Assembly (NCBI GenBank): GCA_019115665.1
Contig: DXDD01000094.1
Location: 1 to 41,024, forward strand
Source of the DNA: Candidatus Eisenbergiella pullistercoris
GTDB lineage: Bacteria > Bacillota > Clostridia > Lachnospirales > Lachnospiraceae
Direction: 5' to 3'
DNA: 41,024 nucleotides
Notes under the pieces: generated by a model
Told to the model about the DNA's origin: nothing
The model's input: only the letters and a program-made list of their open reading frames with translations
The model's database searches: none
In this document: piece by piece, positions 17,402 through 36,765 of the stretch
Layout of the letters: every line of letters starts with the position of its first letter
Numbering within the stretch: the stretch's first letter is position 1
Translations under genes and position numbers: made by a program

Positions 17402-19042
17402 ATGAGGGAACAGAAAAAGATCATTATTTTCACGGACAGCGGGGACACGATCATCGACGAGGCCACCCAGCAGCTCAGGGAGGACGGGATCGTTACCACG
17501 GCGGATTTCATTGAGGATGCGGGGGAGGTCCTTCAGCGGATGGATGAAGCGGGCTACACCATCGCGCTTGTGGCGGACGGCGAGGAGGAATCCTTCCAGA
17601 ATGTATACCGGGAAAACGGGCTGAAGCACTGCTTTGACGCCTGGGTGGTGTCGGAGACGGTGGGACAGCAGAAGCCCGCGCAGATCATGTTTCAGACGGC
17701 AATGGATCAGCTTGGACTGACGGATGCGGATAAATCCAGGATCGTGATGATCGGAAACAACCTGAAGAAGGATGTGGCCGGAGCGAACCGCTTCGGGATC
17801 ACGTCCATCTGGCTGGACTGGTCGCCCCGGTACTTCCATGAATTTGAAGAAGAGGACTGGAAGCCGGACTACACGGTAAAGCATCCCTCCGAGCTGCTTC
17901 CGCTGCTGGAAGAGCTGGAAAAGAAATGGAACGAGGAGGAGGCTAAGATGGAAGCAGAAGCGAAAAAGAAACTGGATCTTCTGGTGGACGCGTTCGTTCC
18001 GATCCTCTATGAGGACGACGCGCAGTTCATGAAGAACATGAGGGAAAAGAAGCATATTTCCGAGGAGGAGCTTCAGAAATACGCGCACTGGGAGTGGACG
18101 CAGGGCGTCGGTCTGGTAGGCATCTGGAAGCTGTTTTCCATGACCGGGAAGCAGGAATATCTGGATATCCTGACCAGATATTATGACAACCAGAAAAAAG
18201 TGGGCTTCCCTCCGTCCAACGTGAACACCATGGCGCCCTATCTGGTGATGTCCTATCTGGCGGAATATCTGAAGAGCGAGGAATACATGGCGCCCTGCCG
18301 CGAGGCCGCGGAGTGGATCATGACCGAGATGCCCAGGACCGAAGAGGGCGGCATCCAGCATCAGACCTCGGACGACTGGAACGAGGGCGAGATCTGGGAC
18401 GATACCCTGTTCATGACGGTGCTTTTTTTGGCCAACATGGGCCGGATCCTCGACAGAAAGGATTATCAGGAGGAGGCGCAGTATCAGTTCCTGCTCCACA
18501 TGAAATATCTGCAGGATAAAAAGACCGGCTTCTGGTATCACGGCTGGACCTTCCTAGAGCGGAACAATTTCGCGGGCGCGTTCTGGGGCAGAGGAAACTG
18601 CTGGATCACCATCGCCATCCCGGAATTCCTGGATACGCTGAAATGCCCGCCCGCCGTTGAAAAGATCCTCAGGGGCGCGCTGGAAAATCAGGTGCGGGCG
18701 CTGGCGGAATGCCAGGCCGAAAGCGGCATGTGGCATACGCTGCTGGACGATCCCGATTCCTACGAGGAGGCGAGCGCCACCGCCGGATTTGCCTATGGCA
18801 TCCTGAGGGGCGTGCATGCGGGACTGCTGGATCAGAAGTGGGAGAGCGTCGCAAGGAAGGCGCTTCGTCCGATCCTTTCCCTGATCTCTGAGGACGGGGT
18901 CGTGAATCAGGTTTCCTACGGCACGCCGATGGGACGGATCTCCAGGGACTTCTACAAGACCATCCCGATCCAGCCCATGCCCTACGGCCAGGCGCTGGCA
19001 ATCTTATTCCTGATCGAAAGCGGAGTGGAAAACGATAAATGA
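17402..19042 (+). CDS. HAD-like domain fused to GH105/GH88 unsaturated uronyl hydrolase
   Basis: 546 residues in two parts. Residues 1-180 are a HAD-superfamily fold: IIIFTDSGDTIIDE (nucleophile D12; the +2 acid is Gly, as in DLGN/DLGG-type members), K91 in QQKPAQ and GNNLKKDVAGANRFG with D124. Residues about 190-546 are an (alpha/alpha)6 barrel of the GH105/GH88 type: WEWTQGVGLVGIWKLF, EIWDDTLFM (candidate catalytic D333/D334), WYHGW and AFWGRGNCW. Such enzymes remove unsaturated glucuronic or galacturonic residues left by polysaccharide lyases. No signal peptide. It begins the operon opposite the AraC gene and overlaps the GH38 gene by four bases. The pairing of a phosphatase-like domain with a uronyl hydrolase is unusual. 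Confidence 0.85.
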   Translation: MREQKKIIIFTDSGDTIIDEATQQLREDGIVTTADFIEDAGEVLQRMDEAGYTIALVADGEEESFQNVYRENGLKHCFDAWVVSETVGQQKPAQIMFQTAMDQLGLTDADKSRIVMIGNNLKKDVAGANRFGITSIWLDWSPRYFHEFEEEDWKPDYTVKHPSELLPLLEELEKKWNEEEAKMEAEAKKKLDLLVDAFVPILYEDDAQFMKNMREKKHISEEELQKYAHWEWTQGVGLVGIWKLFSMTGKQEYLDILTRYYDNQKKVGFPPSNVNTMAPYLVMSYLAEYLKSEEYMAPCREAAEWIMTEMPRTEEGGIQHQTSDDWNEGEIWDDTLFMTVLFLANMGRILDRKDYQEEAQYQFLLHMKYLQDKKTGFWYHGWTFLERNNFAGAFWGRGNCWITIAIPEFLDTLKCPPAVEKILRGALENQVRALAECQAESGMWHTLLDDPDSYEEASATAGFAYGILRGVHAGLLDQKWESVARKALRPILSLISEDGVVNQVSYGTPMGRISRDFYKTIPIQPMPYGQALAILFLIESGVENDK

Positions 19043-22000
19043 GTTACGGCAGAAATTATCCCGGAAGACAGTGGAAGGACAGGCTCGACATGTGGGCGGA
19101 GGAATTCCCGAAGCACTATATCCTTCCGGAAGAGGAACTGAAGGTCAGCGGCTTTGTTACGAAAGAAAGGCTGGCTTACAACGAAGCGCTGGAACGGGCT
19201 GAGCGGGAAGCAAAGCCCGTTCCGGAAGGAACGGCCTGGGGATGCTACTGGGAGTACGGCTGGTTTTTTCTGGAATATACCGTTCCGGAACGGCTGGCCG
19301 GAAAGCGGCTGGTCTTCCTGCCCGGCTTTGGAGAGGAAATGCTGGTATGGGTGAACGGCAGGGAAAGCGGAGCCGTGGATAAGAAGCATTCCTGCATCAC
19401 CCTTTCGAAAAGCGCGGAGGCGGGAGAACGCTTCCTGATCGCGGCGGAATGCTACGCGGGACACGGCCCCAGAATGGAGAGCGGCTGTTTCTGCCGGAAG
19501 GGAGAGAAGCCCTTTTCCGATGCGGACGGCCCGCAGCTTGTGACGAAGCCTTCCTTCGCGGGCGTGTGGCAGGAAGAGATCTTTCAGGCGGGCATGGATT
19601 ATCTGACGCTGTATTCTCTGCTGTCCCGTCTCCCGGAGCGGTCGCTGCGGGCGATGAAGGTGACCGAGGGCCTGAAGAAGTTTACCCTGCTTTCGGATTT
19701 TGAGCTTCCGGAGGAAGAGCTGGCAGAGAACCTTGCAAAGGCTGATGAGGCTTTAAAGCCGCTTCTTTCCTGCACCAACGGCTCCACCGCGCCGGAGTTC
19801 ACCGTTTTCGGCCAGTCCCATCTGGATCTGGCCTGGCTGTGGACGCTGGAGGAGACCAGGCGCAAGGCGGCGCGTACCTACAGCAATCAGCTGGCGCTGA
19901 TGGAGGAATATCCGGAATATCAGTTCCTGCTCTGCGAGCCTCCTGTGCTGGAATATCTGAAGGAATCCTATCCGGAGCTCTGGCAGCGGGTGAAGGAGCG
20001 GACCGCGGAAGGAAGGATGATCCCGGACGGCGCGTTCTACGTGGAAAGCGATACCAACATGCCCTGCGGGGAAAGCCTGATCAGACAGCTTCTGTACGGA
20101 AAGAAATGGTTTCAGGAGGAGCTCGGCGCGGACAGCAGGGTGGCCTGGCTGCCGGACTGCTTCGGCTTTTCTCCGGCGCTTCCCCAGATTCTTTCCCGGT
20201 GCGGCGTGCCCTATTTTGCCACCCAGAAGCTGATCCGGCAGGATCCGGAATGCGAGCCCTTCCCGTACAATGATTTCTGGTGGGAGGGAATTGACGGCAC
20301 ACGGATTCTGGCACATACTTATAAGGAGAACAATGCGCGGATCTCGCCCGGGGACATGATCCGCCGCTGGGAAGAGGACCGGGTCCAGGACGAAGGGACC
20401 GAAGGGATGATCTATTCCTACGGCTACGGCGACGGAGGCGGCGGCCCCACCAGAGAGCTTGTGGAAGCCGCGCTTCGCTGCCGCGATCTGGAAGGCGCGC
20501 CCAGAGCCGTATTCGAGGGACCGGAGGCTTATTTCAGGAAGCTGGAAGAGCGGGGCTGTGAAAATGTGTTTTCCGGCGAGCTGTATCTGGCCTGGCACCG
20601 CGGAACCTACACCGCCCAGGCGAAGACCAAGCTGGGCGTGCGGAGAGCCGAGTGCCTGCTGAAGGAAGCGGAGTACTGGAATACGCTGCTGGCGCTGCGG
20701 GAGCTTCAGAACGGGCGGAGCCCGGAAGAGGACGCGGGCGCCGGAAAGCGGGCGGAGCGGCTGCATATCCTGTGGAAACGGCTTCTCATGCAGGAGTTTC
20801 ACGATATCCTGCCGGGCACGGGAATCGCCCGGGTGCATCAGGAGGCGGAAGAGGAGCTTGCCGAGGTGGCGCGTCTGACAAAGGACTGCCTGGCGGAAAG
20901 CCTCACTGAGCTGGAGCAGGCCGTGCGGGCGGATGGCGGAGACGGAAAAAGGGCAGTTTCATCGAATGACGGAAATGGCGCGGATGCGGCAGAAACCGGC
21001 CGGAACGGATCCTGTCCGGAGGCCCGCGGACAGAGGCTTTTCCGGGAGGGAGAGGAGTTCCTCCTTCAGAGCGATCTTCTCACCGTACGGCTGAACAGGG
21101 CCGGCCAGGTGCTCAGCCTGCGGCCGGAAGGCCCGGACGAGGCATGGGAAGCGGCGGGAGAGCCGATGAATACCTTCCGGCTGTACCGGAACGTGAATTC
21201 CTATTATGACGCCTGGGAGATCGGCAGCATGTATGAGCAGGAGGAGGAAGCGCTGGATACCGCCGACTGGCACATGACGGAGGATGTCTTTGAGGGGCGT
21301 CCGGCATGGAGGCTGGAAGGAAGGATCAAGGAATCTCCTCTGACCCAGTACATCTGTCTGAGCCCGGACGGGCGGATGGCGGAGTTTCACACCAGGATCG
21401 ACTGGCAGGAGAGACACCGCATGCTGAAGGTGGATTTCCCGGCGGCCTTCCGTTCGGACCATGTGACGGCCGAGGTTGCCTGCGGCGCCTGGACCAGACC
21501 GACCACCCGCTCCTATCAGTGGGAAAAGGACCGCTACGAGGTCTGCGGACACCGCTACAGCGTGCTGGAGGACGGCAGATACGGGATGGCGCTGATCAAT
21601 GACTGCAAATACGGCTTCAGCGCGAAGGAGGACCGCATCAGCCTGACGCTTCTGCGTTCCCCGCTGATGCCGGACATGCATGCGGATCAGGGCAGACAGG
21701 AATTTTCCTACGCCTGCTTCCCCTACGCCGGAGCATTCCGGAATGCGCAGGTTCTGGAGCGGGCGGCGGAGTTCAACCGCAGATCCCACGTGGACGCGGC
21801 GCTGCGGGAAAGACAGGAACGGCTGACGGAGGTTCTTGGAACCTTTGCTCTTCAGCCGGAAGGCGGCGCGCAGGGAACGGTCTGCCACGTATTCCCGGAG
21901 GCGGTGAAGCTTGCGGAGGACGGAAGCGGACGGGCGGTGCTCAGGCTGTACGAATCGGCCGGCTGCCCTCAGCGGGTGAGACTCCTTCTGCCGGAAGGGC

Positions 22001-22128
22001 TGCGGAAGGCCTGCGTATGGGAAAGCACTCCCCTGGAGGAAACCGGGCGGGAGCTTTGCGTGAAGGACGGCTGTGTGGAGCTGGAATTTCAAAAGTTTGA
22101 AATCAGGACGCTTCTTCTTTCCGTATAA
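19039..22128 (+). CDS. Glycoside hydrolase family 38 alpha-mannosidase
   Basis: 1029 residues, overlapping the upstream gene in ATGA. An N-terminal beta domain (1-240) is followed by the catalytic GH38 domain: FGQSHLDLAWLWTLEETRRK (zinc ligands H261, D263), WLPDCFGFS with nucleophile D373, and a third zinc motif near QEFHDILPGTG. An Asp/Gly/Ala-rich linker (about 630-655) leads to the C-terminal beta-sandwich domains, as in other bacterial long GH38 enzymes. No signal peptide, so it would remove alpha-linked mannose from imported oligosaccharides. The exact linkage is not predictable. Confidence 0.94.
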   Translation: MSYGRNYPGRQWKDRLDMWAEEFPKHYILPEEELKVSGFVTKERLAYNEALERAEREAKPVPEGTAWGCYWEYGWFFLEYTVPERLAGKRLVFLPGFGEEMLVWVNGRESGAVDKKHSCITLSKSAEAGERFLIAAECYAGHGPRMESGCFCRKGEKPFSDADGPQLVTKPSFAGVWQEEIFQAGMDYLTLYSLLSRLPERSLRAMKVTEGLKKFTLLSDFELPEEELAENLAKADEALKPLLSCTNGSTAPEFTVFGQSHLDLAWLWTLEETRRKAARTYSNQLALMEEYPEYQFLLCEPPVLEYLKESYPELWQRVKERTAEGRMIPDGAFYVESDTNMPCGESLIRQLLYGKKWFQEELGADSRVAWLPDCFGFSPALPQILSRCGVPYFATQKLIRQDPECEPFPYNDFWWEGIDGTRILAHTYKENNARISPGDMIRRWEEDRVQDEGTEGMIYSYGYGDGGGGPTRELVEAALRCRDLEGAPRAVFEGPEAYFRKLEERGCENVFSGELYLAWHRGTYTAQAKTKLGVRRAECLLKEAEYWNTLLALRELQNGRSPEEDAGAGKRAERLHILWKRLLMQEFHDILPGTGIARVHQEAEEELAEVARLTKDCLAESLTELEQAVRADGGDGKRAVSSNDGNGADAAETGRNGSCPEARGQRLFREGEEFLLQSDLLTVRLNRAGQVLSLRPEGPDEAWEAAGEPMNTFRLYRNVNSYYDAWEIGSMYEQEEEALDTADWHMTEDVFEGRPAWRLEGRIKESPLTQYICLSPDGRMAEFHTRIDWQERHRMLKVDFPAAFRSDHVTAEVACGAWTRPTTRSYQWEKDRYEVCGHRYSVLEDGRYGMALINDCKYGFSAKEDRISLTLLRSPLMPDMHADQGRQEFSYACFPYAGAFRNAQVLERAAEFNRRSHVDAALRERQERLTEVLGTFALQPEGGAQGTVCHVFPEAVKLAEDGSGRAVLRLYESAGCPQRVRLLLPEGLRKACVWESTPLEETGRELCVKDGCVELEFQKFEIRTLLLSV

Positions 22129-22217
22129 AGGTTCTGTTTGTAAGAAAGAAGAGAGCTCGTTTCAATAAAAAAAAGACTGATTTACGGAGCCAATAACGCT
22201 TCGGAACGGAGGGAAAA

Positions 22218-23375
22218 ATGGCAAACGGATTTATCATGCCCGGCAAGATCATCAGCGGCAGCGGCGCGCTGGATCAGGCGGGAGAGCAGTTTCAGAAGAT
22301 GGGAAGCCGCGCTCTGATCGTTACGGATCAGATGATGAGAAAGCTGGGGACCCTGGATAAGGTAACGGCGGTCCTGGAGAAAAACGGGGTTCCCTACAGC
22401 GTGTTCGACGGCGTGACCGGAGAACCTACGGATGTGATGGTAAACGAGGGCCTGGAGATTTACAAAAAGGACGGCTGCGATTTTCTGATCGCCCTGGGCG
22501 GCGGAAGCCCCATCGACTCCATGAAGGCGATTTCCGCGCTGGCCGTGACGGATCAGAAGATCACGGATTTCTTCGGAAAGGAGATCGAAGGGAACCTTCC
22601 TCCCACGGCGGCCATTCCCACCACGGCGGGAACCGGTTCCGAGGCGACCCGCTTCACCATCATCACGGATACCGAAAAGGATGTGAAGATGCTGTTGAGA
22701 GGGGACGTGCTGATGCCGGACCTGGCGATCGTGGATCCTCAGTTCACGATCACCGCGCCTCCTAAGACCACGGCGGCCACCGGCCTTGACGCTCTGACCC
22801 ACGCGGTGGAGTCCTTCACCTCCGTGAAGGCACAGCCGCTTACGGATGTATTCGCCCTTTCCGCGGTGCAGAGGATCTTCAAGTATCTGCCCGTTGCCTT
22901 CCACGAGGGCGGAAATGTGGAGGCCAGAGAGGAAATGTCCCTGGCGGCCCTGGAAGCGGGCATCGCCTTCAACAACGCTTCCGTCACCATCGTGCACGGC
23001 ATGAGCCGTCCCATCGGCGCCCTGTTCCATGTGGCGCACGGCATTTCCAACGCTATGCTTCTGAAGGCCTGCCTGACCTTTGCCCTGGACGGAGCCTATG
23101 AGCGCTTCGCGCGGCTGGGAGACGCCATCGGCGTGACGAAGGAAGGACAGAGCGATCCGGAAAAGGCGCAGGCCTTCCTGGACGCGGTGGTCGCCCTGTG
23201 CAGGGAGCTGGAGATCCCGACCCTTGCGGAATACGGCATCGATAAGGAACAGTTCTTCGCCGTGACGGATAAGATGGCGGATGACGCGCTGGCCAGCGGC
23301 AGCCCGGCGAACACCAGAAAGCCGGTGACGAAGGAGGATATCCTTCAGATCTACGCGGATCTCTGGAAGGAATAA
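22218..23375 (+). CDS. Iron-containing (type III) alcohol dehydrogenase
   Basis: 385 residues, GGAGGG upstream. The NAD-binding motif is ALGGGSPIDSMKAI, followed by PTTAGTGSEATRFTII, and the metal ligands lie in DALTHAVES (D/H), HGMSRPIGALFHVAHG (H) and further His. These enzymes reduce or oxidise small aldehydes and alcohols. It is 89 bases after GH38 on the same strand. Inference: in the inositol pathway it could reduce malonate semialdehyde, since no iolA dehydrogenase is present here; a general aldehyde role is equally possible. Confidence 0.92.
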   Translation: MANGFIMPGKIISGSGALDQAGEQFQKMGSRALIVTDQMMRKLGTLDKVTAVLEKNGVPYSVFDGVTGEPTDVMVNEGLEIYKKDGCDFLIALGGGSPIDSMKAISALAVTDQKITDFFGKEIEGNLPPTAAIPTTAGTGSEATRFTIITDTEKDVKMLLRGDVLMPDLAIVDPQFTITAPPKTTAATGLDALTHAVESFTSVKAQPLTDVFALSAVQRIFKYLPVAFHEGGNVEAREEMSLAALEAGIAFNNASVTIVHGMSRPIGALFHVAHGISNAMLLKACLTFALDGAYERFARLGDAIGVTKEGQSDPEKAQAFLDAVVALCRELEIPTLAEYGIDKEQFFAVTDKMADDALASGSPANTRKPVTKEDILQIYADLWKE

Positions 23376-23377
23376 AA

Positions 23378-23423: not shown

Positions 23424-23444
23424 ACGCAGGAGGGAGATTATTCA

Positions 23445-24158
23445 TTGGAAGAGCTTTTAATGGAAGAGCTTTTATGGGGAACCCTTCGGGGAACGGATAC
23501 GCCGGATATCACCCTGAAGCTGTTTCTCTGCATCGTCTGCGGAGGGCTCATCGGCCTGGAGCGGGGAGCAAAGGGACAGGCGGCAGGCTTCCGGACCCAT
23601 ATCCTGGTGTGCATGGGCGCCTGTATCGCCATGCTGACCGGACAGTACATCTACGAGTATTTTGAGACCAATTCCGACCCGGCCCGTCTGGGCGCGCAGG
23701 TGATCAGCGGGATCGGTTTTCTGGGAGCCGGAACGATCATGAGCCGGGAAACGACCCGGGTGAGAGGGCTTACCACGGCGGCCGGCCTGTGGGCTGCGGC
23801 CTGCATCGGGCTGGCTGTGGGGATCGGATTCTTCGAGGCCGCGATCGGAGCCACGGTGGTGGTGATGGTCACCATCGTGATCTTTCAGCGGGTCGATAAC
23901 TTTTTCTATACCAGATCCCCGATCCTGCGGGTGTATCTGGAAATGGAGAGCATCGACTATGTGAAAGGGCTGATCCGCACCATCCGGATGAACGGGATGC
24001 GCGTTTCCGGAATGGAGCTTCAGAAGCCCAGAAGCGGAATGCAGAACGCGGTCGGGATCGCGCTGGTGGTAAAAAAGAACACCAGAAGGAATCCGGTGGA
24101 TATGCTGGAGGTGATCAGCAAGGTGGAAGGAGTCACCTTTATTGAGGAGACCCTGTAG
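23445..24158 (+). CDS. mgtC: MgtC/SapB-family membrane protein
   Basis: 237 residues. It starts with TTG at 23445, seven bases after AGGAGGGAG; an ATG at 23460 lies too far away. Codons 1-5 are a duplication of codons 6-10 (see findings). The N-terminal membrane part contains the family motifs GGLIGLERGAKGQAAGFRTH, MLTGQYIYEYF, GIGFLGAGTIM and VRGLTTAAGLWAAACIGLAVG. A soluble C-terminal ACT-like domain follows (about 155-237). MgtC proteins act in magnesium/phosphate homeostasis and can modulate an F-type ATPase. Its place inside a sugar and inositol operon is odd; it may be a hitchhiker or help with phosphate balance. Confidence 0.9.
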   Translation: MEELLMEELLWGTLRGTDTPDITLKLFLCIVCGGLIGLERGAKGQAAGFRTHILVCMGACIAMLTGQYIYEYFETNSDPARLGAQVISGIGFLGAGTIMSRETTRVRGLTTAAGLWAAACIGLAVGIGFFEAAIGATVVVMVTIVIFQRVDNFFYTRSPILRVYLEMESIDYVKGLIRTIRMNGMRVSGMELQKPRSGMQNAVGIALVVKKNTRRNPVDMLEVISKVEGVTFIEETL

Positions 24159-24278: not shown

Positions 24279-25295
24279 GTGAAATATATCACCTTTGATG
24301 AAACAAGACCGATGGACCTTGTCCTGCTGGGAAGGATCGCGGTGGACTTCAATCCCGTGGACTATTTCCAGCCCCTGGAGGACTGCACCACCTTTAAAAA
24401 GTATGTGGGCGGCTCCCCGGCGAACATCGCAGTGGGCGTATCCAGACACGGCCTGAAGGCAGGCTTTTTCGCCCGCGTGTCCGACGATCAGTTCGGCGAT
24501 TTCGTCACTCATTTCTTTGAGAAGGAGGGCATCGATACCTCCCGCGTGCGCCGCTGCGAGCATGGGGAGAAGATCGGCCTGACCTTCACGGAGATCCTTT
24601 CCAGAGATGAATCCAGCATTCTCATGTACCGCAACTGCATCGCCGACCTGCAGCTGTGCCCCGCCGACATCGACGAGGAATATATCCGCAATGCGAAGGC
24701 GATCCTGATCTCCGGAACCGCCCTCGCGGCAAGCCCCTCCAGAGAGGCGGCCCTGAAGGCGGTCATGATCGCGAAGCGCGTGGGAACCAGGGTGATCTTC
24801 GATATCGATTACCGCGCCTACAACTGGACCTGCGAGGATGAGATCTCCATTTACTATTCCATGGTGGCAAAGAATGCGGACATCATCATGGGCTCCCGCG
24901 AGGAGTTCGATCTGACCGAGCGGCTGATCGAGCCCGGCAGGGACGACTGGCAGAGCGCGAAGGCCTGGCATGAGGCGGGCGCGAAGATCGTGATCATCAA
25001 GCACGGAAAGGAAGGTTCCACCGCCTATACCAACGACGGCGAGAGCTATTCCATCAAGCCCTTCCCGGTCGATGCCCTCAAGTCCTTCGGCGGCGGGGAC
25101 GGCTACGGCTCCGGCTTCCTGTACGGACTGTTCCAGGGCTGGGAGATGATCGACTGCCTGGAGTTCGGCAGCGCCGAAGCGGCCATGATGGTGGCGGCCC
25201 ACTCCTGCTCCCAGGATCTGCCCGGGACTGAACAGGTGAAGGATTTTATCCGGGACTGCAAGGAAAAATACGGCGAAATGGTAGCCAGAGTATAG
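24279..25295 (+). CDS. iolC: 5-dehydro-2-deoxygluconokinase
   Basis: 338 residues from a GTG at 24279 (AGGAGG eight bases upstream). PfkB-family signatures: YVGGSPANIAVGVSRHGL near the start, FDIDYRAYNW typical of IolC, and the ATP/catalytic motif FGGGDGYGSGFLYGL with the conserved Asp. It phosphorylates 2-deoxy-5-keto-gluconate in myo-inositol catabolism. It is the first iol gene of the cluster, spaced by about 120 bases from mgtC. The canonical GAGD of the motif is GGGD here, a mild variation. Confidence 0.93.
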   Translation: MKYITFDETRPMDLVLLGRIAVDFNPVDYFQPLEDCTTFKKYVGGSPANIAVGVSRHGLKAGFFARVSDDQFGDFVTHFFEKEGIDTSRVRRCEHGEKIGLTFTEILSRDESSILMYRNCIADLQLCPADIDEEYIRNAKAILISGTALAASPSREAALKAVMIAKRVGTRVIFDIDYRAYNWTCEDEISIYYSMVAKNADIIMGSREEFDLTERLIEPGRDDWQSAKAWHEAGAKIVIIKHGKEGSTAYTNDGESYSIKPFPVDALKSFGGGDGYGSGFLYGLFQGWEMIDCLEFGSAEAAMMVAAHSCSQDLPGTEQVKDFIRDCKEKYGEMVARV

Positions 25296-28475: not shown

Positions 28476-29489
28476 ATGGTAACAGTAGGAATCATCGGAG
28501 CCGGAAGAATCGGCAAGGTGCACACCAGAAGCATCTGCAACTTCGTACACAACGCGAAGCTGAAGACCGTTGCGGATCCCTTCATGAATGAGGAGACGGA
28601 AAAGTGGCTGAAGGACATGGGCGTGCAGAACACCACGAAGGATTATCACGAGATCCTGAACGATCCCGAGATCCAGGCGGTGCTGATCTGCTCCTCCACG
28701 GACACCCATTCCCCGATCTCTCTGGAAGCGATCGCGGCAGGAAAGCACGTATTCTGCGAAAAGCCCATCGATCATGACCTGGGCAGGATCCGCGAGGTGC
28801 TGAAGGCGCTGGAAGGCAGCAACCTGAAATATCAGGTGGGCTTCAACCGCCGTTTTGACCACAACTTCGCGGCCGTGAAGCAGGCGGTCCTGGACGGAAA
28901 GGTGGGCGATCCTCATATCATCCGCATTACCTCCAGAGATCCTGAGCCGCCGAGCCCCGCTTATGTCGCCGTATCCGGAGGCATGTTCCTGGATATGACC
29001 ATCCATGATTTTGATATGGTCCGTTTCCTGGCCGGCTGCGACGCGGAGGAGATCTATGTGCAGTCCGCAGTCCTGGTGGATCCCGGCATCGGAGAGGCGG
29101 GAGATGTGGATACCGCGGTCATCACCCTCAAGATGGCAAACGGCGCCATCGCCGTGATTGACAACTCCAGACGCGCGGCCTATGGCTACGACCAGAGAGC
29201 GGAGGTGTTCGGCTCCAGGGGAATGGCGGCGACCTCCAACGATACCGCTTCCAGCCTGGTACTCTCCACCGCTGAGGGCATCACCGGCGAGAAGCCTCTG
29301 TACTTCTTCCTGGAGCGCTATACCGAGTCCTTCGCGAAGGAGATCACCTGCTTCATCGACTCCATCGAGAACGATACCCCTACCCTTGTGGGCGCGGAAG
29401 ACGGTCTGAAGCCCGTCCTGATGGGCATCGCCGCGAAGAAATCCGTGGAGGAGCACCGTCCGGTGAAGCTTTCCGAGATCGTATATTAA
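28476..29489 (+). CDS. iolG: Inositol 2-dehydrogenase
   Basis: 337 residues. The GFO/IDH/MocA fold is clear: MVTVGIIGAGRIGKVHTRSI (NAD site), CEKPID with the conserved Lys, GFNRRFDHNF, and DMTIHDFDMVRFL with the catalytic Asp/His pair. It oxidises myo-inositol to scyllo-inosose with NAD+. It may also accept scyllo- or chiro-inositol. It follows iolE by 157 bases that hold a GC-rich stem-loop (GCTGCGGCC, 28363-28389). Confidence 0.93.
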   Translation: MVTVGIIGAGRIGKVHTRSICNFVHNAKLKTVADPFMNEETEKWLKDMGVQNTTKDYHEILNDPEIQAVLICSSTDTHSPISLEAIAAGKHVFCEKPIDHDLGRIREVLKALEGSNLKYQVGFNRRFDHNFAAVKQAVLDGKVGDPHIIRITSRDPEPPSPAYVAVSGGMFLDMTIHDFDMVRFLAGCDAEEIYVQSAVLVDPGIGEAGDVDTAVITLKMANGAIAVIDNSRRAAYGYDQRAEVFGSRGMAATSNDTASSLVLSTAEGITGEKPLYFFLERYTESFAKEITCFIDSIENDTPTLVGAEDGLKPVLMGIAAKKSVEEHRPVKLSEIVY

Positions 29490-29643: not shown

Positions 29644-30417
29644 ATGAGCCAGTTATTCAGCTACCCGGAATTCGATGATCAGGGCGTGAAGGTACTGAGC
29701 CGCGCAGGCGAAGGCGAAGGGCCTGACGACATGATGATGAACATCACCGTTTATCAGATGAAGGCCGGGGACGAAAGAAGCTTCTGCCTTCCGGAGGAGG
29801 AAATGGCCGTCCTTCTGGTGAAGGGAGATATCACTTTTTGCTGGAACGGAGAGGAAAAGAGAGGGAAGAGAGACAGCTTCATCGAAGAAGGCCCCTACTG
29901 TCTGCATGTGAGCAGAGGCGTATCCGTAACGGTAAGGGCGGAGGCGGACAGCGAAGTGCTGGTGCAGAGCACGGAGAATGAAAGGGAGTTCGCGCCCGTT
30001 TTCTACACGCCCGCGGACTGCAGGGACGATATCTTCGGAGACGGCGTATGGGACAACAAGATGAAGCGTACGGTCCGCACCGTGTTCGACTACAGCAACG
30101 CGCCCTACTCCAACATGGTAAACGGAGAGGTGATCAACCACCAGGGCGGCTGGTCCAGCTATGCGCCCCATCACCATCCGCAGCCCGAGGTTTATTATTA
30201 CCGCTATGAGCGTCCGGAAGGCTTCGGGGCCTGCTACATCGGCGACGACGTGTTCCGCATCGCGGACGGAAGCTGCGCGCATATCCGCTGCGGAAAGGTT
30301 CATCCGCAGGTGACGGCGCCCGGATATCCCATGTATTACTGCTGGATGATCCGCCATCTGCCGAATGATCCGTGGACGGATCGGATCGTGGATCCCAGAT
30401 ATGCCTGGATCCAGTAG
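29644..30417 (+). CDS. iolB: 5-deoxy-glucuronate isomerase
   Basis: 257 residues, GGAAAGGAGAAG upstream. The bicupin family marks are present: MMNITVYQMKAGDERSFCLP near the start, then NHQGGWSSYAPHHHPQPEVY with the metal-binding His cluster and YYRYERPEGFGACYIGDDVF, and QVTAPGYPMYYCWMIRH. It isomerises 5-deoxy-glucuronate to 2-deoxy-5-keto-gluconate, the substrate of IolC. With C, D, E, G and B present, the window lacks only iolJ (aldolase) and iolA. Confidence 0.95.
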   Translation: MSQLFSYPEFDDQGVKVLSRAGEGEGPDDMMMNITVYQMKAGDERSFCLPEEEMAVLLVKGDITFCWNGEEKRGKRDSFIEEGPYCLHVSRGVSVTVRAEADSEVLVQSTENEREFAPVFYTPADCRDDIFGDGVWDNKMKRTVRTVFDYSNAPYSNMVNGEVINHQGGWSSYAPHHHPQPEVYYYRYERPEGFGACYIGDDVFRIADGSCAHIRCGKVHPQVTAPGYPMYYCWMIRHLPNDPWTDRIVDPRYAWIQ

Positions 30418-30431
30418 GACAATGCGCCATT

Positions 30432-30572: not shown

Positions 30573-31505
30573 ATGGCGAAACAAAAAGCAGCAGTGAAAG
30601 AGAAAAAGAATGTCAAGACCTATCTGAAAAACACATGGCAGCTGTATGCCATGCTGATCATCCCGGTGGTTTATATGATCCTTTTCAAATATAAACCGAT
30701 GCTGGGCGTGGTCGTCGCATTTAAGAAATTCAACGTGTTCCAGGGTATCTGGAACAGCCCGTGGATCGGACTTGCGAACTTCCAGGAAGCGTTTTCATCC
30801 AGAGACTTCTGGAGCGCGCTGGCGAATACGCTGATCCTGAACATCGGCGATCTGATCATCGGCTTCCCGATCCCGATCTTCCTGGCGATCTTCCTGAACG
30901 AGCTGAAGAGCAGCGCGGTAAGAAAGACGACGCAGACCCTCCTGTATCTGCCCAACTTTCTTTCCTGGGTTATCATCGCCGGTATCAGCACGCAGCTGTT
31001 CTCTTCCAGCGGACTGGTGAACAACCTTCTGAATGCGCTGGGCATCGGCACGGTGAACTTCCTGACCAACTCCTTCGCGTGGAGGATCGTATACTGGTTC
31101 TTCGGCGTATGGCAGGGCGCGGGATATTCCCTGATCGTTTATCTGGCGGCCCTGATGGCGACGGACGCTTCCCTCGGCGAGGCGGCCTACATAGACGGAG
31201 CGACCAGACTTCAGAGAATCTGGTATGTGACGCTTCCTCAGATCTCTTCCACCATTACGGTTCTTCTGATCATGCAGGTCGGAAAACTGGTGAGCATCAG
31301 CTTCGACCGTCCTTACATGATGGGCAACTCCCTGGTAAGAGACGCGGCGGACGTTATCAGTACCTACGTATATTCCATCGGTCTTGCAGCCGGACGTTTT
31401 GACTTCGCAACGGCGGTTGGTCTGTTCCAGACGGTAGTCGGCATCGTCCTGGTACTTTCCGCGAATGCGGTCATTAAGAAAATGGGACAGGAGGGAATCG
31501 TGTAA
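30573..31505 (+). CDS. lplB: Carbohydrate ABC transporter permease (LplB type)
   Basis: 310 residues, GGGGAAGG upstream. Six membrane helices; the N-terminal segment is KNTWQLYAMLIIPVVYMILF, and the EAA coupling loop GEAAYIDGATRLQRIWYVTL near residue 205 contacts the ATPase. It belongs to the CUT1-type permeases that import oligosaccharides with a lipoprotein binding protein. No ATPase gene is seen here; these systems usually share MsmX-like ATPases encoded elsewhere. Its stop overlaps the next gene's start (TAATG). Confidence 0.93.
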   Translation: MAKQKAAVKEKKNVKTYLKNTWQLYAMLIIPVVYMILFKYKPMLGVVVAFKKFNVFQGIWNSPWIGLANFQEAFSSRDFWSALANTLILNIGDLIIGFPIPIFLAIFLNELKSSAVRKTTQTLLYLPNFLSWVIIAGISTQLFSSSGLVNNLLNALGIGTVNFLTNSFAWRIVYWFFGVWQGAGYSLIVYLAALMATDASLGEAAYIDGATRLQRIWYVTLPQISSTITVLLIMQVGKLVSISFDRPYMMGNSLVRDAADVISTYVYSIGLAAGRFDFATAVGLFQTVVGIVLVLSANAVIKKMGQEGIV

Positions 31506-32375
31506 TGGGAAGCAGTATTAACAGCAGAACAGAGAAGTTATTCCAGTTTTTCTGGACAGCATTTTTTATCATTGTCACCATAATCGCAATGGTTCCGATC
31601 CTGCGGGTTATTTCCATGTCCTTCAGTACCAAGGAGGCCATTCTGGCAGGCAAGGTCATGGTATGGCCGGTGGGCTTCACTCTGGAAGCCTATGACAGGG
31701 CGTTAAACAGCGGAAGCTTTGTCAGAGCGTTCGGTTATTCCATCGTCCTGATGATCGGTTCCACGGCGCTGAGTCTGATCATGACGGTAATCGCCGCCTA
31801 TCCTCTTTCCAAGAAGCATCTGGTAGGGGGGGGGAGCGATCATGACTCTGTTCGTCCTGACCATGTACTTAAATCCCGGCGTTATCCCGGAGTACCTGAA
31901 CGTCAGAGACTTCAAGATGATCGATACCGTATGGTCCCTGCTGATTCCGGGAGCGCTGAGCGCCTACAATATGATCATCATGTGCAACGCCTTCAAGGGA
32001 ATCGACGCGGCCATCTACGACGCGGCAAAGATCGACGGGTGCAGTGAAGGGCGGACGCTGATCAGCGTGGCTCTGCCTCTGGTTTATCCTACCATTGCGA
32101 CCCTGGGTCTGTTCTACGCGGTCGGCAGATGGAACGGCATCAGCGACGTATTGTACTACATCAACTCCTCCGAGCTGTTCACCGTGCAGATGGTTCTGAA
32201 GCAGTTCATCGAATCCATCAACGTAACGGCCGAGGAAGGTATCCAGACCAACCTGGTAGCCGACAACATCAAGGCGGCGAGTATCGTGATCTCCATGCTG
32301 CCCATGCTGATCGTATATCCTTTCGTGCAGAAGTTCTTCACCAAGGGTATCATGATCGGAGCGGTAAAGGGTTAA
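31505..32375 (+). pseudogene. lplC: Carbohydrate ABC permease (LplC type), +1 frameshift in G9 run
   Basis: The first 107 codons (KLFQFFWTAFFIIVTIIAMV..., AYPLSKKHLV) match LplC permeases, then the frame runs off after a run of nine G (31826-31834). Reading with eight G continues seamlessly as VGGGAIMTLFVLTMYLNPGV and IPEYLNVRDF, through EAA motif AAIYDAAKIDGCSEGRTL to ITMIGAVKG, giving about 289 residues in total. The 3' part has its own ATG (31842) a few bases after GGGGAG, so reinitiation is possible. Either the allele is phase-variable by slippage, or ribosome/polymerase slippage restores it, or it is a base-calling error. The rest looks under selection, so the gene was recently functional. 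Confidence 0.9.
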
Positions 32376-32453
32376 TGCGATTAATCTATCCTTTCGGGCA
32401 GGTCCTGCCCGGAAGGGTATGTTAATAAAAAACGAATGGGAGGTAACCAAGAA

Positions 32454-34142
32454 ATGAGGAGAAAAAGTCTACTCAAAAGATCACTGGCAATCCTGCTTGC
32501 GGCGGGAATGGCTGTGACGGGAGCGGCATGTGGAAGCTCTTCTTCCACTACCCCTTCTGAGCCTGCGGCTGAGACCGCTCCTGCAGCTACGGAAGAAGCT
32601 GCGGCGACGGAAGAGGCTGCGGACAGCGCTGCTACGGAAGAAGCAGCGGCTGACGCCGATCTGTTCGGCGATGAAGTCACCATCAACGTAATGGTATGGG
32701 ACAGAGGAAACGCTGCGCCCGGAACCACCACCGAGGACAACAACCTGACCAAATGGATCCAGGAGCAGGTGAAGACGCTGTACAACATCAACGTTGAGTA
32801 CACCGCTGTTCCCAGAGCCGAGTCCGACGACAAGGTTAACATCATGCTGAGCGGCGGCACCGCCCCCGACATCATCATGACCTATGACCAGGCGCTGTTC
32901 TATAACTATGCGAGCAGCGGAGCCCTGAAGGATCTGACCGATCTGTATGCGCAGTACGGCGGAGACATCGAAGCCAACTGTACCGAGGCTGAGCCTGCGG
33001 GCGTGATCGACGGCGTGAGATATGCCGTTATGAAGCAGAGAGGTACCGAGGAACCCCGTCATACCGCTTACATCCGTCAGGACTGGCTGGATGAGCTGGG
33101 CATGGAGATCCCTACCACCAAGGAAGAGCTTGGCGAGTATCTGTATGCGGCTAAGGAAAACAACCTTGGCGGCGACAACACCATTCCGTGGGCAATGAGC
33201 GGACGTACCGATACCGAGAAGATGTATCTGAACTTCGTTGGATCCTATGTGGATCTGCCCAGCGACCGCGACGCTTACATGTATGCAGAGAGCTACATGG
33301 CAGTAGCGCCCGGCTCCAAGGATGGTCTGCAGCAGCTGAACACCTGGTACAACGACGGCCTGATCAGCCAGGATTTCCCGACTGACTCCGCGGAAGATGT
33401 ATACAAGGCTGCCATCGCAAACGGCAACGCAGGCTTCGTGCTTGACGACGTTTACAACCCTCATGCAAGCTTTGAGGTTCTCAACAACACCCTCGGCGTG
33501 CAGGAGACCTTCGTTCCGGTACAGTGCTTCGACCTTCCGGACGGCTCCTACAGAAATCCTTTTGAGTACAGATATGCCATGTATGTCATGATCCCTTCCA
33601 CCACCAGCGATGAGAAGGCGGCTGCCTGCATGAAGTACCTCAACTGGATGTCCGATCCTGAAGTAGCGATGAACATTTATTATACTCCTGACTACACCAC
33701 CAACGATCTCGGCGTAGCGGTTGCTCCTTCTACCACCGAGCTTCAGGAGCTGGGTTATCCCGGAACTCCCGACGACCTGTCCATCGTGAACCAGAACTAT
33801 ACCTGGGTAAACGATTATGAGGTTATGGCTGCTACCAGCTATGAGAACAGAACCTCCGACTGGGTGACCGAGGAGTGGTATCTGAACCTGTACGAAGTGA
33901 AGGAAGTCGGCAAGTATCGTTTCCCGACCTACGCTTACATCTCTCCTGATGAGCAGACCTATGGCGCTGACATCAAGACCAGAATGATCGAGTTCGTTTA
34001 CAACTGCATCTGCTGCCCTGCTGATCAGTTCGAGTCCACCTATGAATCCGGATATCAGGAGCTGGTAAACGCCGGCCTGCAGAAGATCCTGGATGCAAGA
34101 GGAGCTTACTATGACAGCGTAAACGGCGGCGCTGCTGAATAA
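32454..34142 (+). CDS. lplA: Sugar-binding lipoprotein of the LplA type
   Basis: 562 residues from the ATG at 32454 (GGGAGG upstream); an upstream in-frame ATG at 32436 has no site. Signal peptide LKRSLAILLAAGMAVTGAAC with a lipobox VTGAAC; a Ser/Thr/Glu/Ala-rich spacer of about 50 residues follows. The mature part has the extracellular solute-binding family 1 fold (ITMIMLSGGTAPDIIMTY-like GGTAPDIIM, WLDELGMEIPTT, and WMSDPEVAMNIYY). It captures the oligosaccharide for LplB/LplC. It ends with a terminator at 34215. Confidence 0.92.
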   Translation: MRRKSLLKRSLAILLAAGMAVTGAACGSSSSTTPSEPAAETAPAATEEAAATEEAADSAATEEAAADADLFGDEVTINVMVWDRGNAAPGTTTEDNNLTKWIQEQVKTLYNINVEYTAVPRAESDDKVNIMLSGGTAPDIIMTYDQALFYNYASSGALKDLTDLYAQYGGDIEANCTEAEPAGVIDGVRYAVMKQRGTEEPRHTAYIRQDWLDELGMEIPTTKEELGEYLYAAKENNLGGDNTIPWAMSGRTDTEKMYLNFVGSYVDLPSDRDAYMYAESYMAVAPGSKDGLQQLNTWYNDGLISQDFPTDSAEDVYKAAIANGNAGFVLDDVYNPHASFEVLNNTLGVQETFVPVQCFDLPDGSYRNPFEYRYAMYVMIPSTTSDEKAAACMKYLNWMSDPEVAMNIYYTPDYTTNDLGVAVAPSTTELQELGYPGTPDDLSIVNQNYTWVNDYEVMAATSYENRTSDWVTEEWYLNLYEVKEVGKYRFPTYAYISPDEQTYGADIKTRMIEFVYNCICCPADQFESTYESGYQELVNAGLQKILDARGAYYDSVNGGAAE

Positions 34143-34214
34143 AGAGCAGAGGATAAAGCCCCACATCCTGAACGGCGGATAAACGCTGCGCGGGACATCC
34201 AAGGTTCAGGTTTT

Positions 34215-34250
34215 ATGACCGTCCTGGCGTCATGCCGGGGCGGTCATATT
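34215..34250 (+). terminator. Intrinsic terminator after the binding-protein gene
   Basis: ATGACCGTCCTGGC (34215-34228) pairs with GCCGGGGCGGTCAT (34234-34247) with two G-U pairs and a five-base loop, followed by ATTTG. The following lyase-like gene may still be read through, or have its own start. Confidence 0.7.
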
Positions 34251-34318
34251 TGACAGCGGGGAAAACGGGGAAAGGAAGAAAAGCGTCCTGGCGCGGACGC
34301 TTTGGAATGGAGGAGACA

Positions 34319-36037
34319 ATGAAGAGATATTGGCCTCATATCGTAAGATCCACGGAAAAAATGGTGGAGGATTATCTTGCAAAGCAGGTAAAGGACAGCA
34401 GCAGACCGGATTATGGCCGTATGCCCAGCGAGATCATCGAAGGGAAGCTGACCATTTATCTTCTGACCAACGCGGTCTGCCTGTATTTCTGTAAGGAAAG
34501 CAGATACTATAAGGATGAGAAGCTTTTTGACGCCATAAAGACCGGCCTTGCCTTCATCGAAAGATGGCAGAGAGACGACGGAAGCCTGGACTATCCCAGC
34601 TGCAATTTCTATTCCGCGCCTGACACCTCCTTCTGCTTCCGCAGACTGTACGGCGCCTGGAATATCCTGGAAAAGCACGCGCAGACGGAAGAGGAGAAGG
34701 AGCTGCAGAACAGATATCTCATCCTGCTGCTTCGCTGCATCCCGATCCTTCTGTACGGCGGCTTCCATACGCCCAACCACCGCTGGGCGGTGATGTCCGT
34801 GCTTTTCACCCTGGCGAACGTGGTGAAGCAGAACGGACAACTGGCGCTTGAGGTTCCCCGCTATCCTAAGGAGTATTTCAGCGAGGATCAGATCCCGCAC
34901 ACCGTGGAGGAGCTGGTGCGGAAGCTGAGAGACCGGGCGAACCAGTATCTGGCGGAAGGCATCGACGGGGATGAGGACGGCGAATACGCGGAGCGCTCCA
35001 CCGGCAACTACAACGCCGTGGTGGACAAGTCCCTGATCTCCGCCTATGAGGCTACCGGAGATGAGAAATTCCTGGGCTACGTGGAGCGGAACCTGAACAT
35101 GATGCTCTACTACATCGACGGGGACGACACCATTTTTACCCAGAACTCCACCAGACAGGATCACGGAACCAAGCAGTATGCGGACAAATATTTTTATCTG
35201 TATACCTACATGGCGGACAAGACGGGCAATCCGCTCTTTGACGCGGCGGCCCACAAGATCATCAAAGACAATATGGAGCGGGCGGACCTGGCTCAGGACT
35301 GCATGTATATCTTCATGATGTACGACTGGCTGCTGGACTATGAATTCAAGGGCTACGGCTTCCTGCCTGAATACCGGAAGTTCTTCCGCGGCTCCCAGGT
35401 CCTGCGCGTGAAGAAGGAAAATTATGTATACAGCGTGCTGAACAACAAGGCGGCCTTCCTCTTCCTGAAATTCGGCTCCCTTCCCATCGGCCTTCGCATC
35501 GGAGAATCCTACTGCGATATCCGGAATTTCATCCCGAAGTCCATCGAGGTGAAGGACAACGGCTGCGTGCTGAAGGCGGAAGCCGGCGGCTGGTATTATC
35601 AGCCCTTTAAGGAGGATCAGGGAACCAGCGACTGGTGGGCCATGGACCATACCAAACGGGATAAGATCCACACCAGCAAGGTCGCAATCACCGTGACCCT
35701 TTCCGAGCTGGAGAACGGCTTGGATATCAATGTGAAGGCCGAGGGAATGAGCGGCCTGCCGCTGCGCGTGGAGCTGGATGTTCCGGCGGGCGTCGTGCTG
35801 GAAAACGAAACCATGTGCCTGACCGCGGGAAAGGGCGAGAGCATGATCTTACGGGGCGGCGAGCTCAACCTTCATGAGGGCGCGCAGAAGATCGTCATCG
35901 GCCCCGGATACGGAACCCATGCCTTCAAGGGCCACTATTCCGGCGAGGAGCGCAACGAATACGGCTACAGCATCTTCCTCAACGACTATACGCCTTATGA
36001 CCGGAGCTTCCGCATCGTGGACGGAACGCTGAAATAA
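34319..36037 (+). CDS. Predicted (alpha/alpha)-toroid glycan-active enzyme, lyase-like
   Basis: 572 residues from the ATG at 34319 (GGAGG, five-base spacer). Residues 1-370 are helical repeats of an (alpha/alpha)-toroid: ERWQRDDGSLDYPSCNFYSA, GGFHTPNHRWAVMSVL and STGNYNAVVDKSLISAYEA, with FTQNSTRQDHGTKQYADKYF. The N-H/R pair in PNHRW and the later Tyr and His residues recall heparinase II/III-type lyases. A beta-sandwich follows (about 385-572: NYVYSVLNNKAAFLFLKFGS, WYYQPF). No signal peptide, so it acts inside the cell. The lyase role is inferred; a glycoside hydrolase of similar fold is possible. It is followed by a protein of unknown function 17 bases on. Confidence 0.55.
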   Translation: MKRYWPHIVRSTEKMVEDYLAKQVKDSSRPDYGRMPSEIIEGKLTIYLLTNAVCLYFCKESRYYKDEKLFDAIKTGLAFIERWQRDDGSLDYPSCNFYSAPDTSFCFRRLYGAWNILEKHAQTEEEKELQNRYLILLLRCIPILLYGGFHTPNHRWAVMSVLFTLANVVKQNGQLALEVPRYPKEYFSEDQIPHTVEELVRKLRDRANQYLAEGIDGDEDGEYAERSTGNYNAVVDKSLISAYEATGDEKFLGYVERNLNMMLYYIDGDDTIFTQNSTRQDHGTKQYADKYFYLYTYMADKTGNPLFDAAAHKIIKDNMERADLAQDCMYIFMMYDWLLDYEFKGYGFLPEYRKFFRGSQVLRVKKENYVYSVLNNKAAFLFLKFGSLPIGLRIGESYCDIRNFIPKSIEVKDNGCVLKAEAGGWYYQPFKEDQGTSDWWAMDHTKRDKIHTSKVAITVTLSELENGLDINVKAEGMSGLPLRVELDVPAGVVLENETMCLTAGKGESMILRGGELNLHEGAQKIVIGPGYGTHAFKGHYSGEERNEYGYSIFLNDYTPYDRSFRIVDGTLK

Positions 36038-36054
36038 GAAAAGGGGAAAACGCC

Positions 36055-36765
36055 ATGACAGCAGAAAGAGAGCTTGCCTTAAAATACCTTCCCGTTTTCA
36101 TGCTGGATGAAAAGGAACCCTTTGACATGAAGGCGGTAGGCTATACCATTTTCAGTAGCGATCTTCGCAGCGACTCCTTTCCCAAACGCGTCATCGCAGC
36201 CGACTGGGAGAAAACGGACTGCGTGATCGAATATGAGATCTGGTTCGACTATGATATCCAGCACCTCTACGAGCTGGAGCATGTCTGGGTCTACGTGGGA
36301 AAGGACGGCGGCGTGCAGAAGGCGGAAGGAAGCTTCCACGGAAAGTACCTGAACCAGGTGAACCTGGATACGGGAAAGCCTCCTCTGGATGAAAACGGAC
36401 GCGTATGCGTTTATCTGCAGCCGGGAAAGCACGCCGTGCTTTCCGATCCCCGGCTGGTGCGCCTGGTTCCCCAGTGGCAGGAAAGCTGCGGGGAGCTTGC
36501 CGGCCTGGACGGCGTCCCGCTTCCCGAAATGTTCCAGGACGTGATGGCCGTCCCGGATGAAGCGGCCCAGGAGATGGTGCACCGTTATATCCGGAAGAAC
36601 TTTTCCTTTGAACCTTCCCTGCGGTTCGTTCCCTTCTTCCCGGAAACTTTCCTTCCGGAAAAGGAGCTGCTCCTGCCCTGGCCGGAGCTGAAGGCCAGCG
36701 TGCCCAAGCGGCTTCAGAAGGAGCTTTGGCGCATCGCGGAGGCGGAAAAGAGCGGAAGGGGATGA
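36055..36765 (+). CDS. Conserved hypothetical protein of the glycan locus
   Basis: 236 residues, AAGGGGAAAA upstream. I do not recognise the family. Visible features are a beta-rich first half with CVIEYEIWFDYDIQHLYELE and HVWVYVGKDG, a central GSFHGKYLNQVN loop and a YLQPGKHAVLSDP segment, and an acidic, helical C-terminus. No signal peptide or membrane helix. It follows the lyase-like gene closely, so it may act on the same substrate or as a lectin-like helper, which cannot be proven here. Confidence 0.6.
   Translation: MTAERELALKYLPVFMLDEKEPFDMKAVGYTIFSSDLRSDSFPKRVIAADWEKTDCVIEYEIWFDYDIQHLYELEHVWVYVGKDGGVQKAEGSFHGKYLNQVNLDTGKPPLDENGRVCVYLQPGKHAVLSDPRLVRLVPQWQESCGELAGLDGVPLPEMFQDVMAVPDEAAQEMVHRYIRKNFSFEPSLRFVPFFPETFLPEKELLLPWPELKASVPKRLQKELWRIAEAEKSGRG

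Follow-up and report, generated by a model that had tools for sequence, protein, structure and literature searches.

What does a bacterium consume with a block of genes in which an alpha-mannosidase, an unsaturated uronyl hydrolase, a predicted lyase-type protein and oligosaccharide import genes stand together with a set of myo-inositol (iol) genes? Such a block lies at positions 17402-36765 of a 41,024-nucleotide stretch from Candidatus Eisenbergiella pullistercoris (the window in what follows), which is the entire contig 56 of a draft Lachnospiraceae genome assembled from a metagenome (3.29 Mb, 178 contigs, completeness 89.9%) whose closest named relatives are mostly Candidatus Eisenbergiella, plus other Lachnospiraceae. 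A reading made from the letters only (hereafter the sequence-only reading) had proposed a utilisation locus for a mannosyl-glucuronosyl-inositol glycoside, perhaps the head group of plant glycosyl inositol phosphorylceramides (GIPC). In our judgement the balance tips towards the block encoding an intracellular pathway for a 4-substituted hexuronic acid glycoside of inositol, with the plant GIPC head group as the likeliest such compound. Comparison with related genomes makes it a well-supported new utilisation locus with a candidate substrate. All genes of the block are on the plus strand, with an AraC regulator divergent at its left end:

16265..17377, minus strand: AraC-family regulator (Pfam HTH_18 and AraC_binding; the mechanical open reading frame extends to 18541)
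17402..19042, plus strand: HAD domain fused to GH105, an unsaturated uronyl hydrolase family (Pfam Glyco_hydro_88, 323 bits, and HAD_2)
19039..22128, plus strand: GH38 alpha-mannosidase, Ams1-like (all four GH38 Pfam domains)
22218..23375, plus strand: iron-containing alcohol dehydrogenase, Fe-ADH (Pfam Fe-ADH)
23445..24158, plus strand: MgtC-family membrane protein (Pfam MgtC)
24279..25295, plus strand: iolC (TIGR04382, 401 bits, cut-off 300)
25386..27314, plus strand: iolD (TIGR04377, 902 bits, cut-off 715)
27419..28318, plus strand: iolE (TIGR04379, 415 bits, cut-off 290)
28476..29489, plus strand: iolG (TIGR04380, 468 bits, cut-off 355)
29644..30417, plus strand: iolB-like gene of the KduI/IolB family (Pfam KduI, 177.9 bits; TIGR04378, 93.6 bits, under the cut-off of 205)
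30573..31505, plus strand: ABC sugar permease 1 (Pfam BPD_transp_1)
31505..32375, plus strand: ABC sugar permease 2, frame interrupted (Pfam BPD_transp_1 on the second half)
32436..34142, plus strand: solute-binding lipoprotein (Pfam SBP_bac_1; hydrophobic start, lipobox-like Cys)
34313..36037, plus strand: the toroid, predicted polysaccharide-lyase-type protein with an alpha toroid and a beta domain (AF2 model, Foldseek; no Pfam family over cut-off; the frame opens at 34232 and homologues begin at about 34319)
36055..36765, plus strand: p236, a conserved 236-aa orphan (without Pfam or NCBIfam match)

Every gene that the sequence-only reading had named in this region was found in its place, and Fe-ADH, MgtC, p236 and, on the other strand, the AraC regulator are additions to its list. 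The window holds 80 mechanical open reading frames of at least 120 aa, 30 of which were scanned with Pfam; no inositol-type transporter was seen among these 30, and a look at hydropathy, made without a dedicated predictor, gave no signal-peptide-like start on HAD-GH105, GH38, the toroid or p236. Both observations agree with what had been said of the block before.

The argument for a lyase step is carried by the toroid. Its sequence matched no Pfam family over cut-off and gave no significant NCBIfam match and no relative in the PDB. An AlphaFold (AF2) model built from a 14-row alignment (pLDDT 88, pTM 0.87) found its best Foldseek matches among lyases, namely a PL33 hyaluronate lyase, alginate lyases (PL17 and others) and chondroitin/hyaluronate lyases, with best E values of 1e-9 to 1e-8, identities of 8-12%, TM-scores (query) of about 0.45-0.6 and root-mean-square deviations of about 8-11; PL15 and PL8 are the families that we take further matched entries to represent. 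As modelled, the toroid shares with these lyases the architecture of an (a/a)6 toroid and an antiparallel beta domain and is not a close relative of them. N155, H156 and Y233 are invariant in 14/14 rows of the alignment. Among 115 homologue rows, in which some loci appear a second time, the N-H motif is found in 112 and the Y motif likewise in 112, the rows without one or both motifs being the fragments L067, L110 and L126, and L119, which is without the Y pattern (loci and genomes are given by our L and G handles). Asn and Tyr are spaced by 49-57 in 93 rows and by 78 in another 13, and 78 is also the value for the window's toroid, where an insert of about 20 residues lies. The toroid is like the PL33, PL17, PL15 and PL8 lyases in its predicted fold, in its conserved Asn-His and Tyr, which may be the neutraliser and the acid-base, and in a spacing that in most rows resembles PL33, and unlike them in showing neither a significant sequence match nor a signal peptide and in having partner genes that point to a small glycoside. 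The accessible part of PMC11848413 gives the catalytic residues of PL33 as N238, Y291 and H444, hence an N-Y spacing of 53; the toroid residues were mapped to these by spacing, without superposition, and no invariant His matches H444. We read the toroid, on this model and these residues, as a lyase-type enzyme.

Paralogues of the toroid at 33-34% identity lie at G000:C171:5612-7237 (L045) and as second copies in G211, G308, G376 and G442; in the stretches read, none of them has iol genes or GH105 nearby.

The expected partner of such an enzyme is GH105, a family that requires unsaturated uronic acid. The closest PDB relatives of the window's GH105 domain are 3pmm, 3qwt and 4xuv (292-344 bits), and YteR is weaker at 90 bits; Asp143 of YteR, presumably the catalytic residue, is aligned to an Asp in the window's domain. 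The block resembles the YteR-type GH105/GH88 rhamnogalacturonan systems in its conserved Asp, in showing no signal peptide and in its ABC import genes, which we take to be of the LplA/LplB/YtcP look; it is unlike them in that its GH105 is nearer to 3pmm, 3qwt and 4xuv, is fused or adjacent to a HAD domain and is linked to iol genes. G008 encodes HAD and GH105 separately, and AraC homologues adjoin HAD-GH105 or GH105 and the toroid in many loci.

The HAD domain is harder to place. In 17/17 aligned domains (13 of the 15 HAD found in the best 80 toroid loci, together with the window, L034, L050 and L187) the nucleophile Asp, the Lys and the motif IV Asp are kept, while the second Asp is replaced by Gly and the Thr/Ser of motif II by Ala. 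We assume for these positions the roles of a DxD motif I, a Thr/Ser motif II, a Lys and an acidic motif IV. The sequence-only reading had assigned a phosphatase step to this domain: the domain is present, but with two catalytic positions changed throughout, such a role is doubtful. HAD stands near the toroid without a GH105 match within 12 kb in L057, L058, L063, L066, L109, L118 and L129. Other phosphoesterase-type partners occur among the best 80 toroid loci, a PHP protein in 13/80 (YcdX-like, as we presume the NCBIfam model to be labelled) and a CehA type in 6/80 (each family name was checked on a single member, L076 and L103 respectively), and HAD, PHP or CehA types together are found in 34/80. 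The CehA/McbA-type metallohydrolase cluster, with the match shown for L103, adjoins the toroid in L048, L095, L103, L105, L106, L110 and L131.

GH38 passes the Pfam cut-offs for its N-terminal, middle and C-terminal domains, and its closest solved relatives are the alpha-mannosidases 7ufs/7ufr and fungal Ams1. Its motifs start at residues 260, 372 and 588, to which we assign the roles that we assume for this family. IolC, IolD, IolE and IolG exceed their NCBIfam equivalog cut-offs and IolB does not. Neither the IolJ aldolase nor IolA was seen among the 30 window frames scanned; an aldolase is present in Lacrimispora-type loci, and G1074, which belongs to another class and is described below, has an IolA-type gene. 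Fe-ADH homologues at 61-63% lie inside the stand-alone iol operons L159, L161, L163 and L176, and Fe-ADH perhaps reduces malonate semialdehyde. Compared with myo-inositol operons, the block is alike in iolC, D, E and G, an iolB-like gene and an Fe-ADH as in some Lachnospiraceae iol operons; it is unlike them in that no inositol transporter, iolA or iolJ was found in it and that its iol genes lie between glycosidase and oligosaccharide-import genes. A second KduI/IolB-family gene, a candidate for a keto-deoxyuronate isomerase step, lies elsewhere in the window's genome, at G000:C33:10749-11465. The frame of permease 2 is broken in the window assembly at a run of G; it is open in 3/3 relatives read (L032, L034 and L036, with 298, 298 and 323 codons; 289 aa from the first Met), so the interruption may be a sequencing or assembly error.

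Since glycosidase and iol genes could share a neighbourhood in one genome by accident, the weight of the argument falls on whether they recur together. An evenly drawn sample of 392 genomes of the order, with about 10 kb examined on each side of every toroid, yielded 21 toroid loci, which come from 16 genomes and 8 genera. iolD lies within about 8 kb of the toroid in 10/21 loci, 10/16 genomes and 4/8 genera, and without the window's genome in 9/19 loci, 9/15 genomes and 3/7 genera; several of the 11 unlinked loci are near contig ends. The count of genera (4/8) is the fairer measure because the loci are not independent. By chance about 0.8% per locus would be expected even with one iolD in every genome. 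That two unrelated pathways merely happen to be adjacent, an alternative raised by the sequence-only reading, fails against 10/21 linked loci versus less than 1% expected and against the fuller gene set found in another class. The 15-kb block from GH38 to the solute-binding protein is present in some species of the genus and absent in others, and in three relatives toroid and iolD are on separate contigs, as chance adjacency would allow; we consider it very improbable and strongly disfavoured all the same.

Partner genes were counted in the best 80 of 411 relatives in the named collection (flanks up to 10 kb, some loci ending at contig edges). At least three of the five iol genes occur in 19, GH105 in 37 (within 12 kb), GH38 in 22, an ROK sugar kinase in 41 (39 of these with at least 50% identity), MgtC in 19 and p236 in 14. 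The order of these genes differs among the window, L050 (HADGH105-GH38-toroid-iolC-D-B-ADH-G-E), L062/L063/L109, L183-L185 and L187, and their content overlaps: toroid and iol genes are in all, GH105 in all except L063 and L109, and GH38 in all except L062 and L187. The sequence-only reading had suggested a survey of whether the block is conserved, and the linkage of toroid and iol genes does recur, rearranged, in several genera and in a second class.

Trees were used to ask how often labels of linkage change, a change being a gain or a loss. A quick-method tree of 37 iolD rows, 22 of them toroid-linked, needs 6 changes, at least 5 of which are forced by starred branches; an earlier, careful-method tree of 38 rows had 5 changes, 3 of them forced. 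For the 37-row tree the divergent L167, L168, L174 and L175 were left out and L166 kept, and L183, L184 and L187 were added, L185 and L201 not; L165 (G007), whose toroid is on a second contig, was labelled linked because each of the two contigs ends within the block. The toroid tree needs 9 changes for 24/98 rows; of the 115 rows, seven that were fragments, broken in frame or near-copies did not enter it, nor did nine fetches that were duplicates or near-copies, nor a single identical row. We rely on the iolD tree rather than the toroid tree because the unlinked rows L055, L061 and L071 are cut by contig ends. On these trees toroid-linked iolD genes fall in several separate clades, which indicates more than one origin of the linkage. 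In Lacrimispora and relatives from one toroid clade, the same MgtC(-PHP)-ROK-toroid set has either of two iolD lineages beside it.

In these Lacrimispora-type loci (L068-L078, L126) the place of the SBP_bac_1 system is taken by an ABC importer of the oligopeptide type, and that of HAD by a YcdX-like PHP protein.

Within the window's genus, represented by 13 genomes, a GH38 orthologue (75-100%) is found in four (G000, G004, G007 and G008), and the same four hold an iolD over cut-off that is the block's iolD. G001 has a stand-alone iol operon of a different iolD lineage. In G009, G010 and G005, HAD-GH105 or its remains and the toroid are immediate neighbours; GH38, Fe-ADH, iol and ABC genes are all missing from between them, and none of these genomes has an iolD over cut-off (G009 is 81% complete). 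G010 has lost most of GH105, G005 has an open frame without most of HAD and a toroid divided between two frames, and next to the G006 toroid HAD-GH105 was not found. In three of these four species absence of the block accompanies decay, and gain of the block elsewhere is also possible. Across 195 relatives, iolD over cut-off is present in 8/17 toroid genomes versus 18/178 others, and toroid and iolD form one block in 5/8 (G000, G004, G008, G051 and G007, the last counted so with its two contigs both breaking inside the block).

The same phylum yields a comparable cluster in another class. In G1074, read from two overlapping pieces of one contig, GH38 (31% identity), GH105 (44%), p236 (39%) and the toroid (26%) are clustered with iol and ABC genes. 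The cluster also includes AraC, iolG, iolB, a LacI regulator, a methyltransferase-like gene, iolC, an iolA-type dehydrogenase, iolD and iolE, along with an 840-aa frame matching the AraC query, a solute-binding protein, two permeases and an AP-endonuclease-type TIM barrel; its five iol genes and the iolA-type dehydrogenase are over NCBIfam cut-offs. G882 holds a similar set, without GH38 in the stretch read. The other toroid genomes of G1074's family in the sample (G925, G963, G1185 and G1224) have the solute-binding protein, permeases and toroid, and no iol operon in the stretches read.

From these gene identities and their recurrent linkage we infer a pathway. A lyase-fold enzyme next to GH105 argues for a uronic acid that is substituted at C4, made unsaturated and then freed from its aglycone, and the repeated iol linkage argues that the aglycone is inositol. 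The solute-binding protein and ABC system would import the glycoside, and GH38 would trim further mannose where present. The toroid would then remove the sugar at C4 of glucuronic acid by beta-elimination to leave a 4,5-unsaturated uronosyl-inositol, which GH105 would hydrolyse to 5-keto-4-deoxyuronate and inositol, and IolG-E-D-B-C with Fe-ADH would ferment the inositol. The HAD domain might handle a phosphate, a weak assignment. The core of the sequence-only reading, intracellular cleavage of a uronosyl glycoside feeding inositol to the iol genes, gains strong support from comparative linkage, and its reactions stay at the level of what sequence predicts.

The likeliest natural substrate would be Man/GlcN(Ac)-(1-4)-GlcA-(1-2)-inositol with or without phosphate. 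The ROK kinase near 41/80 toroids would fit a leaving sugar that is phosphorylated, glucosamine in some species, and a NagB-type gene with ROK beside the toroid would be expected if glucosamine is the leaving sugar. A toroid beside an ROK kinase and a NagB-type (glucosamine-6-phosphate deaminase-type) gene was seen in L082, L087, L091 and L186, with no iol gene in the stretch read; the NagB-type call is by NCBIfam equivalog for L087 and by 66-78% identity for L082, L091 and L186. Judged from their gene content, such loci appear to be pointing to a glucosamine-bearing substrate.

Turnover of GIPC by phospholipases, such as a Botrytis PLC and plant NPC4, the latter reportedly a GIPC phospholipase, involves the same candidate molecule; these enzymes cut the lipid, whereas the window's locus would consume the freed head group. 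According to the part of PMC11496612 available to us, GIPC breakdown frees Man-GlcA-inositol-phosphate, which accumulates together with inositol glycans. The available parts of PMC8099651 and PMC9113257 give the plant GIPC core as GlcNAc(a1-4)GlcA(a1-2)inositol-1-phosphoceramide, with Man or GlcN variants by plant and tissue. Of the GIPC proposal made at the outset, what holds is that this head group, a 4-substituted GlcA on inositol (PMC8099651, in the part available), is the best-matching known molecule; that it is the actual substrate stays a prediction.

p236 would be a further enzyme of the locus. In an 11-row alignment H70, E75, H76, H95 and H126 belong to an invariant set of His/Glu/Asp residues; its AF2 model (pLDDT 86) matched no fold in the PDB at E 0.001, the best value being 0.23, and its homologues lie near the toroid in two classes. 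A Vps62/NLP-type fold was suspected from the His/Glu motifs and rejected, no NLP being among the best 50 of 248 fold matches. Such a fold would have given a second link to GIPC because NLPs bind GIPC.

A number of observations weigh against the proposed pathway. The toroid's fold matches have TM-scores of only about 0.5-0.6 and identity of about 10%, and its GH105 partner passes an NCBIfam equivalog named beta-galactosidase BglB (445 bits versus a cut-off of 420); a literature search on the BglB name gave nothing relevant among the matches listed. The changed catalytic positions of HAD belong here as well. If GH38 removed the C4 mannose first, the lyase would be left without a leaving group, a weakness shared by every scheme that uses the two enzymes together. 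In 61/80 of the best toroid loci fewer than three iol genes lie in the flanks, and 15/80 show neither iol genes nor GH105, GH38 or any phosphoesterase-type partner; toroid loci without iol genes may be meant for other uronic glycosides. At L063 and L109, where iol, HAD and GH38 are present, the stretch gave no GH105 match, and both GH105 and GH38 are missing from the Lacrimispora loci. In G009, HAD-GH105, p236 and a toroid 99% identical are intact without iolD over cut-off, and three of the eight relatives with both genes carry toroid and iolD on different contigs (G001, G055 and G132). Seen from the iol side, where 28 iolD places were over cut-off, 4 of them known from other loci, and 20 regions were fetched, only 1/20 is linked to a toroid (L165, of the same genus); one further region, L167, has a GH38 at 30%. 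Operons for inositol without these glycosidases are common in the family, and most of those examined stand alone. The sequence-only reading had named iol genes without the glycosidases in close relatives as evidence against itself, and here the result is mixed: such iol operons are common in the family, and three species of the genus keep HAD-GH105 or what is left of it next to the toroid, with no iol genes between the two and no iolD over cut-off in the genome. The window's own genome gave no GIPC phospholipase in a search that covered PI-PLC-X (PF00388) only and was uninformative, since 0/14 controls matched either.

The same facts allow other accounts of the block. It may serve two nutrients, with GH105, toroid and GH38 degrading an ordinary uronic oligosaccharide (pectin, glucuronoxylan or an arabinogalactan side chain) and the iol genes taking free inositol, for example from phytate, the genes clustering because both foods arrive together. 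Most toroid loci examined are without iol genes in the stretch read, iol operons usually stand alone, a GH28-cluster gene is found in some toroid loci (for example L063, L083 and L109, with Pfam on L083), and GH105 is best known from rhamnogalacturonan. That the block shows neither an inositol transporter nor a secreted pectinase, that its iol genes sit between glycosidases and import genes, and that separate linkage is repeated in several iolD clades and two classes make this account unlikely, if one to be taken seriously. An improbable reading is that the toroid is an epimerase or hydrolase of the same fold and that the route to inositol differs. The sequence search gave no PDB relative of the toroid, and the (a/a)6 toroid and beta-sheet fold is also that of a human uronyl epimerase (PMC11848413, in the part accessible); the Asn-Tyr spacing is, however, as in PL33, and an enzyme needing unsaturated uronic acid, GH105, lies within 12 kb in 37/80 of the best loci.

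Another inositol glycan could instead be consumed, such as a glycosylphosphatidylinositol (GPI)-anchor glycan, a mycobacterial mannosyl-inositol lipid or a fungal mannosyl-inositol-phosphoceramide. GH38, iol genes, phosphoesterase-like partners, ROK and NagB would fit mannose, glucosamine, inositol and phosphate. To our knowledge, the cores of these compounds contain no uronic acid, so that GH105 and the lyase-fold toroid would have no role, and we regard this account as distinctly improbable.

Directly after the block, at 36881-40266 on the minus strand, lie two ABC-exporter half-transporters that are not part of the proposed pathway; G004 and G010 have such a pair after the toroid too. Scans of the window for Rfam families, tRNA genes and promoters or terminators gave no useful result.

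A literature search found no locus for GIPC head-group use among the matches listed, subscription papers being mostly outside the search, and searches that paired Eisenbergiella and Lacrimispora with inositol had no relevant paper among their listed matches. With the uronosyl-inositol pathway as the preferred reading, it is quite possible, if tentative, that the block represents the first genetic system consuming GIPC head groups. It would comprise a new cytoplasmic lyase family acting on hexosyl-(1-4)-GlcA-inositol and a dedicated GH105 branch, with inositol and the leaving sugar (mannose, or glucosamine with ROK and NagB) fermented and p236 as a further new enzyme, and it would be recurrent in Clostridia of the gut and of plant matter and in a second class. 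Culturable carriers of the paired toroid and iol genes include [Clostridium] aerotolerans DSM 5434 and Lacrimispora amygdalina. If true, the reading supplies a concrete gene set and a candidate new lyase family, and for the digestion of plant GIPC sugar head groups in the gut, which is unexplained, the locus would offer a candidate route.

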